From: an uncultured Spirochaetaceae bacterium | GTDB lineage: Bacteria; Spirochaetota; Spirochaetia; Sphaerochaetales; Sphaerochaetaceae | Reading direction: 5' to 3' | Assembly: GCA_944389975.1 (NCBI GenBank) | Contig: CALXOH010000006.1 | Span: 1 to 64,000 of the forward strand | DNA length: 64,000 nt | In this document: piece by piece, positions 42,001 to 50,984 of the stretch | How the letters are laid out: the number at the start of each line of letters is the position of its first letter | Position numbering within the stretch: the stretch's first letter is position 1 | Notes under the pieces: generated by a model | What the model saw: only the letters and a program-made list of their open reading frames with translations | What the model was told of the DNA's origin: nothing | Database searches by the model: none | Position numbers and translations under genes: made by a program

Positions 42001-42693
42001 ATGCTCAGAATTATGAATATTGAATTGAAAGGTTTCTGGGAAAAGTTTTCGATGTTTCTTGGTGTCAATGGGTTAAGTCTTAATAGAGCGGCTTCTCAAA
42101 TGAATATCCCTTATACAACGTTGGTTTCAAATATGAAAAAGAACCAACTTCCTTCAGCAAAATATTTAAAAGCAATTGCTAAGTATATAGGCGTTTCTGA
42201 ACAAGCGCTTTTAGACGACTCTTGGATCGCTATACGAAAAAAGGCATTTTCTGCAGAGGATTCTAGCAAGACTACTCTGTCTAATTTGACTTGTTATTTC
42301 TTAAAAGACAAGCTTAAACCTAATTCTATTGAAGAATTTACATCTGACGAAGATTTCTGTCTTTCTAGTTTTAAGCTCCAAGATCTTTTTGGGCTGCCAT
42401 CAAATTGTTTTATTGGTGCTTTAATTATGAAAGACAATAGTATGAGTGGCTTAAATATAGGAAAAGGAGATATCGTACTCTTTAATAGAGATATTATTGA
42501 TAGTGATGGACTTAACGTTGTTGCAATAGATGATATTCCGACCATGAGGCGAATCCAATATAACAATGATCCTGAAAATCCTGAAATTACGTTCTTAAGT
42601 GAAAACCCATTGTATCCATCGATATCTGATAAAAATGCCGACGGCCTCAGAATCCTTGGTAAGGTTGTCGGATGGTTTCATAACGAAATATAA
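42001..42693 (+). CDS. CI-like phage repressor with S24/LexA-type domain
   Basis: 230 aa (226 if the ATG at 42013 is used; no ribosome site is seen, so the mRNA may be near leaderless). N-terminal HTH: LSLNRAASQMNIPYTTLVSNMK. C-terminal S24-like dimerisation/cleavage domain: catalytic Ser region DNSMSGLNIGKGDIVL. The Lys of the Ser-Lys dyad appears changed: PTMRRI where LexA has VKR. It would repress the divergent early promoter. Confidence 0.82.
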   Translation: MLRIMNIELKGFWEKFSMFLGVNGLSLNRAASQMNIPYTTLVSNMKKNQLPSAKYLKAIAKYIGVSEQALLDDSWIAIRKKAFSAEDSSKTTLSNLTCYFLKDKLKPNSIEEFTSDEDFCLSSFKLQDLFGLPSNCFIGALIMKDNSMSGLNIGKGDIVLFNRDIIDSDGLNVVAIDDIPTMRRIQYNNDPENPEITFLSENPLYPSISDKNADGLRILGKVVGWFHNEI

Positions 42694-42713: not shown

Positions 42714-42742
42714 TTGACAGGTTCGGGATTCGCCACTACATT
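42714..42742 (+). promoter_or_regulatory. Strong promoter upstream of the DUF3800 leader
   Basis: Consensus -35 TTGACA (42714-42719), 17 bases, TACATT (42737-42742). Transcription should begin near 42749, giving a ~114-nt leader. It lies just past the cI stop. Confidence 0.7.
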
Positions 42743-42748
42743 ACAAGT

Positions 42749-42862
42749 ACAGGCTGGTTCCTACAGCACTGCTTACCAGTGGGCACCGAACATTGCGTTT
42801 AAGCGTACTCAGGTTAGTACGTCGGCCACTGGGAGCCTCCCCAGTGCAGGGAGGTTTTTTTT
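42749..42862 (+). ncRNA. Structured leader RNA before DUF3800 gene, attenuator-like
   Basis: Hairpins: CACTG/CAGTG (42767-42781), CGTACT/AGTACG (42804-42821), CACTGGG/CCCAGTG (42827-42846). CCTCCC (42836-42841) can instead pair with GGGAGG (42849-42854), which is followed by eight T and then ATG 42863. The two last stems exclude each other. GGAGG is also the ribosome site, 8 bases from the ATG, so the terminator stem would hide it. DUF3800-linked RNA motifs (DUF3800-I and others) are known from comparative RNA surveys; the exact class was not tested. Confidence 0.68.
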
Positions 42863-43564
42863 ATGACAATTTACATTAGGGCAGATGAATCAGGGGTTTT
42901 CGATCCTCTTCATAATGACTTCTTTATCTTTGCGGGTTTGATTTTCCTTGATAAACAGGAAATGGAATTAGCTAGTAGAAAAGTACTCTCAATGGAAAAG
43001 AAACTAAGGAAGAAAAGAAAGTACAAGGAATTACCGGAACTTAAAGCCACATTGTTAGATCATGCCGACAGAAGAGCATTGTTTGCCATAACAGAACCCT
43101 ATTCTCGTTTTGCTTCGATAATAAACTTAAAGAAAATAGATCATAAAGCTGTACTTGCAGATAAGAAAAGCAAACAACGCTACATGGACTATGCGTTTAA
43201 AAGAGGATTGAAATGGGCCGTGAAATGTATGGTTGCCCGAGGTAGCATATTCTTCGATGATCCTGCGGAGTTTGACATAATTCTTGATGAAAGAACAACA
43301 GCAACAAACGGTAAATATAATCTGGAAGATAGTATTCTTCATGAAATGCGTGGAGAGATTCTGAATTTGCGAACGGGCCAGTGCTTTTATCCTGCTTTGC
43401 CTGCAACAAGAAAGGTTGTAGTCCGCTATGGAAATTCAATCAAAGAACCTCTTCTTCGCGCCGCTGATGTATTGGCGAACAGAATATTACACGAATGCCG
43501 ACATGGAGATTTATGGAGCATTAGAGATAAAAACAATCTTTTCATCTTAAATCTCCCTGATTGA
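42863..43564 (+). CDS. DUF3800 domain protein
   Basis: 233 aa. N-terminal IYIRADESGVF with Asp-Glu-Ser-Gly is the DUF3800 opening motif (DESG); LLRAADVLANRI near the C-terminus is the second conserved Asp site. The fold is thought to be RNase H-like; function unknown, though such genes are common in phages and defence-rich regions. Expressed in the lysogen, from the same strand as cI, and preceded by a regulated RNA leader. Confidence 0.8.
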   Translation: MTIYIRADESGVFDPLHNDFFIFAGLIFLDKQEMELASRKVLSMEKKLRKKRKYKELPELKATLLDHADRRALFAITEPYSRFASIINLKKIDHKAVLADKKSKQRYMDYAFKRGLKWAVKCMVARGSIFFDDPAEFDIILDERTTATNGKYNLEDSILHEMRGEILNLRTGQCFYPALPATRKVVVRYGNSIKEPLLRAADVLANRILHECRHGDLWSIRDKNNLFILNLPD

Positions 43565-43824: not shown

Positions 43825-43919
43825 ATGAAAAAGAAAAAGACCGATGGCTAAAGTTCTACCTTGCAGGGCTAGCCACTTTAGACACGGTCATCGCAATCCT
43901 CACGCTGATATTCAGGTGA
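43821..43919 (+). CDS. 32-aa membrane peptide, toxin-like
   Basis: MDEKEKDRWLKFYLAGLATL followed by DTVIAILTLIFR. One membrane helix after a charged start, strong AAGGAGG ribosome site, start codon locked in a 12-bp hairpin, and a tight UUCG-capped hairpin (43929-43946) just downstream. These are traits of type I toxin genes. Shares no clear sequence with the peptide at 29257. Confidence 0.5.
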   Translation: MDEKEKDRWLKFYLAGLATLDTVIAILTLIFR

Positions 43920-43928
43920 GTACAAATC

Positions 43929-43946
43929 GGAGGGCTTCGGCCCTCC
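43929..43946 (+). terminator. UUCG-capped hairpin after the 32-aa peptide
   Basis: GGAGGGC-TTCG-GCCCTCC, a perfect 7-bp stem with a UUCG tetraloop, ten bases after the stop. Tail CCTATAAAAT lacks a T-run, so it may stabilise the mRNA rather than terminate. Confidence 0.5.
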
Positions 43947-43985
43947 CCTATAAAATAAGCCAAGGGCTGAACGAGGTCAAGGAAA

Positions 43986-44072
43986 ATGAAGGAGAGAACA
44001 CTGCTGATATACATAAGCATCGTGATGACGATCGGAACGATTTGTTCGTTGATTACTTTAGTGAGAGGTTGA
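43986..44072 (+). CDS. 28-aa membrane peptide
   Basis: MKERTLLIYISIVMTIGTIC then SLITLVRG. One membrane helix. AAGGA lies just before the ATG. Its TGA is 2 bases before the RHH gene start, so the two are likely translated together. Confidence 0.4.
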   Translation: MKERTLLIYISIVMTIGTICSLITLVRG

Positions 44073-44074
44073 AT

Positions 44075-44269
44075 ATGGAAGAGAAGAAAGACACCCGGGG
44101 CGGCAGACGCCCCGGAGCCGGAAGGCCGAAGGGAGTTACCAAGCCATACAAGGCGTTTTCTGTGAAGCTTCCAGTCGAGTATATCGACAAGATAAAGAAT
44201 GCAGCAGATAGGCACGGCTTATCGGTCAGCAAGTTCATTCAGGAAGCAGTTGATAGGTTCGATGGGTAA
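44075..44269 (+). CDS. Ribbon-helix-helix protein
   Basis: 64 aa. A basic, Gly-rich start GGRRPGAGRPKGVTK (AT-hook-like) is followed by FSVKLPVEYIDKIKNAADRHGLS...KFIQEAVDRF, a ribbon-helix-helix. The ATG at 44075 follows GAGAGGTTGAAT. It is likely a repressor of the upstream membrane peptides or of the lysogeny block, an inference from position. Confidence 0.62.
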   Translation: MEEKKDTRGGRRPGAGRPKGVTKPYKAFSVKLPVEYIDKIKNAADRHGLSVSKFIQEAVDRFDG

Positions 44270-44420: not shown

Positions 44421-45578
44421 ATGTCGGAAGTGACGGCACGAAAACGCGGAACCAAATGGGAATACCGGTTTGAGGGGATCTCGATCAACGGCAAAAGAAA
44501 ACAGTATTCGAAATCAGGTTTCCGGACAAAGAAGGAAGCACAGACGGCAGGTGCTTCAGCTTATGCCGCTTTCTGCAAATGCGGTATCGTATTCGAACCA
44601 AAGAAGATGAGCCTTGCCGATCTCGTGGATTACTATCTTGAGACCTACGTCAAGACAAACCTGACGAGGAATGCATACAAGACATACGAACATCTTGCGC
44701 GCAATCACATCAAGCCGGTCTTGGGACAATATGATTATTCCACGATGAAGAAAGACATCTTCGTAAAGTTCTTCAACGACCTCGCGAAATCCTATACGAA
44801 GAAAACGCTGAAGGTAATCAAGATCATTCTGAACGGGGCATACAATATCGCCTTGGATATGGATTGGATAGAGTACAATCCCATCTCCAGGGTGAAGGTT
44901 CCTGAGAACACGAAGAAAGCCAAGAAGAAGTGTCCGCTGACCAAGGAAGACTATGACAGGATGATCAGGGAGGTCGGTGAAGATTCCGATTACTACGTTC
45001 CACTGCAAATCGGTTGGTTCACGGGAATGCGTATTGGAGAAGTCCTGGCTCTCACATGGGACGACGTGGATCTTGAGAAGGGAATCATCCACATCAGGAA
45101 GCAAATCATAGACCACGAGGTCGCCTCATTGAAGACGGCCTCCAGCAAAAGGGACATAAGAATCGGGAAAACCCTGACGGACATATTGAAAGCGGAAAGG
45201 GAAAAGCAACTCAAGCACAGACGGGATTACAGGACCTATTACACGACATATGCCGAAGAGGATGGCTTTGTCGTCATCAGCGCCAAGGATACGGTCGACT
45301 ACGTATGTCGCAGACAGAACGGGGATGCGATAAAGGAAGCAAGCCTTCAATGGAAATGCGCAAGGATGGCCGAGTTCCTGGATAAGCCATTCTCTTTCCA
45401 TGTCTTCAGACATACCCATCCGACATTGCTGCTTGAAGCCGGAGCAACCGTCAAGGCCGTACAGGCAAGACTAGGGCATTCCAGCCCGGAAACCACATTG
45501 GAAATCTATTCCCACGTGACACAAGCTCAGGAGGATGAAGCCGTTGAACTCTTCGAGAAAATTGCCCACGAGAAATAA
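44421..45578 (+). CDS. int: Prophage integrase (tyrosine recombinase)
   Basis: 385 aa. An AP2-like arm-binding N-terminus (KWEYRFEGISINGKRKQYSK), a SAM-like core-binding domain at about 65-165, and the catalytic domain with Arg in FTGMRIGEVLAL, Lys in SLKTASSKRDI, HVFRHTH, LGHSSPETTLEIYSH (Tyr). AGGAGGT precedes ATG 44421. It lies about 100 bases from attR, and GTGGGCAA arm sites flank both ends of the prophage. Confidence 0.95.
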   Translation: MSEVTARKRGTKWEYRFEGISINGKRKQYSKSGFRTKKEAQTAGASAYAAFCKCGIVFEPKKMSLADLVDYYLETYVKTNLTRNAYKTYEHLARNHIKPVLGQYDYSTMKKDIFVKFFNDLAKSYTKKTLKVIKIILNGAYNIALDMDWIEYNPISRVKVPENTKKAKKKCPLTKEDYDRMIREVGEDSDYYVPLQIGWFTGMRIGEVLALTWDDVDLEKGIIHIRKQIIDHEVASLKTASSKRDIRIGKTLTDILKAEREKQLKHRRDYRTYYTTYAEEDGFVVISAKDTVDYVCRRQNGDAIKEASLQWKCARMAEFLDKPFSFHVFRHTHPTLLLEAGATVKAVQARLGHSSPETTLEIYSHVTQAQEDEAVELFEKIAHEK

Positions 45579-50829: not shown

Positions 50830-50901
50830 CATCTCCTGCGGGGATCGAACCCGCGTTGACGGGATGAAAACCCGTTGTCCTAACCACTAGACGAAGGAGA
50901 C
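50830..50901 (-). tRNA. tRNA-Glu (anticodon TTC)
   Basis: 72-nt cloverleaf: acceptor GTCTCCT/AGGAGAT, D arm GTCTAGTGGTTAGGAC, anticodon stem-loop ACGGG-TTTTCAT-CCCGT with TTC, T arm GCGGGTTCGATCCCCGC. The 3' CCA is not encoded. Downstream of tRNA-Lys by 10 bases; same transcript. Confidence 0.95.
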
Positions 50902-50911
50902 TAGGTTTACG

Positions 50912-50984
50912 TGAGCCGCATTGGATTCGAACCAATGACCCACGCCTTAAAAGGGCGTTGCTCTACCTGCTGAGCTAGCGGCCC
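50912..50984 (-). tRNA. tRNA-Lys (anticodon TTT)
   Basis: 73 nt: acceptor GGGCCGC/GCGGCTC, D arm GCTCAGCAGGTAGAGC, anticodon stem-loop ACGCC-CTTTTAA-GGCGT with TTT, T arm ATTGGTTCGAATCCAAT. CCA not encoded. Confidence 0.95.

Follow-up and report, generated by a model that had tools for sequence, protein, structure and literature searches.

The leader of the DUF3800 gene in the window (the whole 64,000-nt stretch of contig CALXOH010000006.1, assembly GCA_944389975.1, to which all coordinates refer) is a catalogued structured RNA, DUF3800-I (RF02969), and an ordinary member of that family. From its genomic contexts we favor the view that it is a stand-alone small RNA, with a promoter-like site and a terminator of its own. 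Because RNA and gene are linked in either order, phages carry the RNA alone, and the protein has a predicted RNase H2 fold, we regard the locus as a two-part module rather than a gene with a leader. Our preferred reading, which we judge about evenly balanced between right and wrong, is a prophage-borne RNA-protein module whose RNA acts in trans on a nuclease-like protein, likeliest as a restraint or antidote.

In the window, a prophage repressor (HTH plus S24 peptidase; 42001-42693, + strand) is followed by the DUF3800-I RNA, the DUF3800 gene (233 codons for amino acids; 42863-43564, +) and a tyrosine integrase (44421-45578, +) at the far edge. Flanked in this way by an S24-type repressor on the 5' side and an integrase on the 3' side, the RNA and its gene occupy a prophage accessory slot. 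The DUF3800 protein matches PF12686 (33 bits against a cut-off of 21) and phrog_30113, and a protein 100% identical to it occurs on an uncultured Spirochaetales contig. The assembly contains one DUF3800-I RNA. A reading of this DNA from its letters alone (the sequence-only reading) had pointed to a near-consensus promoter, and there is indeed a sigma-70-type site, TTGACA-17 nt-TACATT (42714-42742, +), that agrees with the consensus at 10 of 12 positions. By itself this site is at chance level (8 promoter-like sites in 3 kb, compared with 7.1 expected), but the position of its -10 is kept in relatives: a -10-like hexamer with two or fewer mismatches is located 4-10 nt before the RNA in 70 of 76 gene-linked cases, among them the window (36% in shuffles), and one with at most one mismatch in 52 of 76 (13% in shuffles). 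The leader of ~114 nt that had been placed between this promoter and the ATG is also there, at ~42749-42862, with the ATG at 42863 touching its end.

That the leader might be one of the known DUF3800 RNA motifs proved correct. The Rfam model of DUF3800-I matches at 42742-42867 (+) over its whole length (model positions 1-115) with 67.5 bits, against a gathering threshold of 44.2, and the transcript itself probably spans ~42749-42862. Our own RNA model, R1, scores the window RNA at 43 bits. The window agrees with RF02969 in the whole model, in its helices and in adjoining a DUF3800 gene. Folded as a single sequence, the window RNA has an energy of -44.8 kcal/mol (z = -3.24). Its predicted fold begins with hairpin P1 (42750-42771, +; 42750-42756 with 42764-42767 and 42769-42771), which covaries in relatives, and continues with P2 (42776-42832, +), an inverted repeat whose closing helix (42776-42782 with 42826-42832) encloses P3 and P4; nine of the ten P2 pairs show two-sided changes in relatives. 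P4 (42803-42822, +; 42803-42809 with 42816-42822) is paired in 100% of cells in relatives, and is adjoined by an invariant UAA (entropy 0.0 among relatives) ahead of GCG. The RNA ends in P5, an intrinsic terminator (42833-42862, +; 42833-42841 with 42849-42857) with a run of eight T residues at 42855-42862. Covariation of the stems in homologs, whose absence the sequence-only reading would have counted against its claim, is strong: in alignment A3, which consists of 38 relatives without the window RNA, 96.5% of P1-P5 cells are paired (86.7% when shuffled, 29-49% in slid controls), and 21 of 32 pairs show two-sided changes, compared with 11.4 in shuffles. We found no published function for DUF3800-I RNA in the literature searched, which did not include the discovery paper of the DUF3800 RNAs, reportedly Weinberg 2017.

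Intact genes of the window's DUF3800 subfamily practically never lack the RNA. By a protein-first search, in which the loci of the best 80 of 125 relatives were scanned with R1, we found it immediately 5' of the gene, in the same orientation, at 78 of 80 genome loci; the two misses are one locus with only 32 nt of upstream sequence (L067) and one whose RNA is visible and unscored by R1 (L096). Similarly, the RNA is on the same strand just upstream at 31 of 33 viral loci, the misses being a gene at a contig edge (L170) and a locus where the RNA is visible (L168). These counts carry a bias, as the 25 genome and 13 viral loci used to build R1 are themselves among those counted; one scan returned no R1 row for L016 or L096. 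The linked genome loci span Spirochaetales, Lachnospiraceae, Oscillospiraceae, Lactobacillus, Bifidobacterium, Gardnerella, Varibaculum, Succinivibrio, Sutterella and others. Within the window's genus there are 30 DUF3800 loci by Pfam (L028-L057), comprising 9 of the window's subfamily, as assigned by profile, and 21 others. All seven subfamily loci with their 5' end present show the RNA core; the other two are the second half of a split gene (L053, whose RNA is in L011) and a fragment (L055). DUF3800-I was not found in the 20 loci between L031 and L055 that were scanned with Rfam, three of which gave DUF3800-XI instead. Since the subfamily genes have the RNA core and the other DUF3800 loci of the genus do not, DUF3800-I RNA belongs with one DUF3800 subfamily. 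The DUF3800-XI RNAs lie beside DUF3800 genes of another subfamily (L032, L034 and L035, at ~2081-2131, - strand). In one locus we also saw a decayed copy of RNA and DUF3800 gene, a tandem relic, ~640 nt upstream of an intact pair (L006:867-976 / L086:4232-4341).

The RNA also occurs on the other side of the gene. It lies downstream, above the Rfam cut-off, on an L. salivarius plasmid (62.8 bits), on an E. faecium plasmid (78.4 bits) and in Streptococcus phage Javan110 (68.2 bits); these three loci are L270-L272. A downstream RNA reached the cut-off in 12 of 17 further loci, with an Exiguobacterium plasmid and phage Javan73 among them; near-identical contigs of E. faecium type account for six of these 12. 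Among the five misses, two loci are cut or broken (L290 and L292), one has a visible RNA core that scores below the cut-off (L298), and DUF3800-I was not found at the DUF3800-like loci of Mesomycoplasma hyorhinis and Mycoplasmopsis maculosa (L299 and L301). An RNA-first scan of viral sequences gave 14 stretches, most of them of E. faecium type, and in all 14 the RNA comes after the gene or after the fragments of a broken one; a BLAST search with the E. faecium-type RNA found no match in phages. Some E. faecium-type DUF3800 genes are broken in mid-gene and retain the downstream RNA (L309, L311 and L313). Seven proteins with a downstream RNA form one clade with support of 1.0 when placed among the 80 proteins of alignment A4 in a midpoint-rooted tree. 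Because the RNA is 3' of the gene in this whole clade, a cis-acting leader cannot explain the arrangement. All six downstream RNAs tested have a -10-like site before them and a T-run after them, and among the gene-linked RNAs 73 of 76 have at least five T residues in seven at the 3' end.

Other copies of the RNA have no gene. Four pattern scans of viral sequences, whose results were then searched with R1, yielded 39 RNAs from 84 loci. The DUF3800 gene is 11-24 nt downstream in 28 of the 39; in L185 the locus ends too early to show the gene, which is seen in L141, from the same contig. The remaining 10 RNAs, 8 of them distinct (L179, L194, L208, L196/L211, L227, L171/L177, L207 and L197), have no gene within 4 kb or within the available sequence, which in several of these loci spans less than 1.4 kb downstream. 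A fifth scan added one more lone RNA (L264), and all nine distinct viral cases are above the Rfam cut-off, at 69.6-103.3 bits, as are all 11 gene-less loci scanned with Rfam (these nine viral contigs and two Mycoplasma prophages). In the Mycoplasma prophages a lone, unannotated RNA follows dnaB in 7 of 7 records (L265, L266 and L273-L277; 78.3-98.5 bits); no DUF3800 was found by profile in the two prophages examined and none is annotated in the other five. Among spirochetes, 20 of the 139 genomes of the window's family contain 27 RNAs, of which 14 have a full gene, four have a broken gene and nine have none that we could see; a PF12686 match is absent from three of the genomes with lone RNAs (G028, G034 and G041, which are drafts). 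Three lone viral RNAs (L179, L227 and, judged from translation only, L211) come after holin or amidase genes, and the DUF3800 gene itself likewise follows holin or lysin genes in several loci. One lone RNA (L197:1244-1411, -), with a shortened P1 and no T-run, immediately precedes a tRNA-Thr gene on a viral contig of 69 kb, and may be released by tRNA processing. Two others are directly ahead of type II toxin-antitoxin genes (L211:2598-3441, -, with Panacea and PemK; L207:2661-2843, -, with HicA), as would be seen after an exchange of the protein partner or in a slot that gathers such modules.

On an alignment that was itself fitted to the structure, 19 lone RNAs each keep at least 90.6% of their pairs; their mean paired fraction of 0.939 is slightly lower than the gene-linked median of 0.969 (Mann-Whitney U test, P = 0.043, with rows paired at 0.5 or less excluded and the decayed copy kept among the gene-linked rows). 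For spirochetes alone, lone RNAs (0.927, n = 9) and gene-linked RNAs (0.935, n = 13) are alike (P = 0.44), the decayed copy and the loci with broken genes being excluded; the shuffle control omitted rows at or below 0.6, and alignment A5 does not contain L266. A -10 with two or fewer mismatches precedes 16 of 20 gene-less RNAs, compared with 36% in shuffles. Some lone RNAs look like leftovers, because several pairs are broken in the M. anatis prophage RNAs, one P2 pair is broken in L208 (a close copy of the gene-bearing L146), and L194 retains the start of a gene. The sequences only suggest active maintenance of the lone RNAs.

An AlphaFold2 model of the DUF3800 protein from 80 sequences has a pLDDT of 93.7 and a pTM of 0.90. 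Its best PDB match by Foldseek is the RNase HII structure 1eke (E = 6.8e-7), to which VIA-align superposed it with Z = 13.1 and an rmsd of 3.2 over 166 residues (Argonaute PIWI rows were at ~9), whereas a search of PDB by sequence found no solved chain related to the window protein. The active site of type 2 RNase H consists of four acidic residues (DEDD). In the 80 DUF3800 sequences D8, E9, D142 and D202 are invariant, and the clade with downstream RNAs has D in place of E9. DUF3800 resembles RNase HII in fold, in a DE pair that ends the first strand, and in two invariant D residues, but it reads DESGVF and has no counterpart of the GRG triplet that RNase HII carries after DEA. By the predicted model, its fold is that of type 2 RNase H, and the protein is a nuclease candidate. 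Altae-Tran et al. (PMC10910872) describe a DUF3800 domain near Cas12a2 as having an RNase H fold that has undergone a catalytic rearrangement, and note that the domain had previously been tied to putative ncRNAs; the 2025 CRISPR classification lists DUF3800 as an RNase H fold nuclease (PMC12669027). In PADLOC the window protein had no match; a weak REase_II match for L062 (E = 0.0052) was not used.

A structured RNA beside a gene for an RNase-H-fold protein is also seen in IscB/TnpB systems with their omega-RNA. DUF3800-I shares this layout, but it has no variable guide segment and a promoter-like site sits right at its 5' end; we rejected a guide RNA reading, as the longest unpaired run within the fold is only 5 nt. 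The type III toxin ToxN has a fold different from that of type 2 RNase H, to which the best DUF3800 matches belong, families outside the match list being possible. With type III toxin-antitoxin systems, which are described as a single promoter, an RNA, an intrinsic terminator between the genes, and a protein (PMC5086642), the window shares the order of promoter, RNA, intrinsic terminator and protein gene. The order is reversed in one DUF3800 clade, and the window RNA has no tandem or direct repeats like those of classical type III antitoxins. Phage mimicry of the ToxI antitoxin by an RNA, pseudo-ToxI, has been reported (PMC3475682). The closest parallel in layout is AbiF/RCd22 of C. difficile prophages, described as adjoining a holin and as having a SigA promoter, an RNA of ~100 nt, a terminator, and read-through into the toxin gene, the RNA neutralizing its protein in cis and in trans (PMC12373285). 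Common to both are a prophage accessory slot near a holin, a promoter, a structured RNA of ~100 nt, a terminator and a protein gene. They differ in that RCd22 belongs to another RNA family (RF03085) and its protein is tied, in that account, to ancestral Cas13 rather than to an RNase H2 fold, and in that activity is proven there, whereas the DUF3800-I module is known here from sequence and predicted fold.

In the module that we prefer, a short independent DUF3800-I transcript of ~114 nt would start at its own promoter and stop at its own terminator, and occasional read-through would yield a small amount of the DUF3800 protein, the candidate nuclease. The RNA would take a fixed shape (P1, P2-P4 and P5) and work in trans on the protein, binding and restraining the nuclease like the antitoxin RNAs of type III and AbiF/RCd22 systems. 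If the ratio of RNA to protein were upset, for example by phage infection, the nuclease would be freed, and RNAs carried alone by phages would be antidotes or decoys. Action in trans is well supported; that the RNA neutralizes the protein we infer, and trans action with neutralization is favored because of the parallels with AbiF/RCd22, type III systems and pseudo-ToxI. Some facts pull the other way. Repeats of the classical type III kind are missing, and L264 has neither -10 nor T-run. Moreover, the gene has ~6 times the length of the RNA, and chance decay by itself would therefore produce an excess of RNA-only over gene-only loci. The slightly lower pairing of the lone RNAs, the recent-looking leftovers described above and the missing T-run of L197 point in the same direction, and the RNA could equally be a cofactor that the nuclease requires.

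The cofactor idea is the main rival to this antidote reading: the RNA would be a needed scaffold or cofactor that activates the RNase-H2-fold protein as a ribonucleoprotein effector, and the phage copies would be decoys or remnants. It fits the near-constant presence of the RNA beside intact genes, its linkage in either order to a protein with an RNase H fold, and the report that DUF3800 proteins accompany one sub-branch of Cas12a2 (PMC10910872). We nevertheless think it unlikely, as the RNA lacks any guide-like stretch and a cofactor explains the RNA-only copies less simply than an antidote does. Alternatively, the RNA might be only a substrate or autoregulator cut by the DUF3800 protein, with the gene-less copies as decaying leftovers. 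RNase H-type proteins do cut nucleic acids, and several gene-less copies are near gene-bearing relatives or have broken pairs, but the 19 well-paired lone copies, the -10 kept in most gene-less RNAs, and a conservation of fold and sequence beyond the needs of a bare substrate make this account quite improbable.

We give the lowest credence to, and consider very improbable, the idea of an attenuator or riboswitch acting in cis on the DUF3800 gene, which is close to what the sequence-only reading proposed: a sensing, switch-like leader with two mutually exclusive stems. The letters are as it described: CACTGGG and CCCAGTG are present and complementary, as are CCTCCC and GGGAGG, and T8 is there too. 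CCTCCC (42836-42841) can pair with GGGAGG (42849-42854), which is followed by T8 and then ATG, and a 7-bp alternative helix, the claimed anti-terminator CACTGGG/CCCAGTG (42827-42846, +; 42827-42833 with 42840-42846), can be drawn. In most scanned loci, as in the window, the RNA is directly 5' of the gene with a terminator at its end. The switch itself does not hold up: in the window the alternative helix has an ensemble probability of 0.0, forcing it gives a fold of -35.1 rather than -44.8 kcal/mol, a cost of 9.7, and no chain other than a nascent one of ~99-103 nt has it as its most stable fold. In relatives it is hardly found, as only 2 of 98 RNAs (the window's, L001, and L010) can form the 7 bp of Watson-Crick pairs and one more forms 6 bp, in a count made without five weak R1 rows and the decayed tandem copy L006:867-976. 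A terminator loop of 4 nt, the most frequent size (48 of the 98 RNAs), leaves no space for such a helix. The further claim that the terminator blocks the ribosome site may hold for the window, where GGGAGG is in the P5 stem and can be the Shine-Dalgarno sequence, but this is not a family trait: of 77 loci, 8 have the Shine-Dalgarno within P5 and 53 have it elsewhere, and none was recognized in 16. Given also that one whole protein clade has the RNA 3' of its gene and that RNAs elsewhere lack the gene altogether, we rejected a riboswitch or attenuator for the family, and Rfam classes RF02969 as an sRNA gene rather than as cis-regulatory. The window's RNA does differ from the family by its own compact junction; its clade adds the Shine-Dalgarno within the terminator stem and the ATG that abuts the T-run, and has the alternative helix to itself, and a switch would be at most a private trait of that clade. 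The other suggestion of the sequence-only reading, that the leader forms a separate stable RNA, is the one that the evidence favors, in view of its -10 and terminator, the lone copies and the reversed gene order.

More broadly, and as a tentative proposal that we lean against rather than toward, DUF3800-I could represent a new type of RNA-restrained toxin or abortive-infection system that prophages and phage-plasmids have distributed among Spirochaetota, Bacillota, Actinomycetota, Mycoplasmatota and some Pseudomonadota. RNA-only phages, such as the one with the RNA beside a tRNA gene and the seven Mycoplasma prophages, would use the RNA as an antidote, in mimicry like that of pseudo-ToxI, and other DUF3800 subfamilies and their RNAs (for example DUF3800-XI) would be parallel modules. 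As a group, the structured DUF3800 RNAs still await explanation, and for this one a vague leader becomes a concrete two-part module. If the protein is toxic and the RNA silences it in trans, a widespread RNA-protein conflict system will have been identified, together with a phage countermeasure made of RNA.

Two other features of the window are an ORF for a ribbon-helix-helix protein (PF01402, at the cut-off; 43844-44269, +) between the DUF3800 and integrase genes, and two neighboring tRNA genes at 50830-50984 (-).
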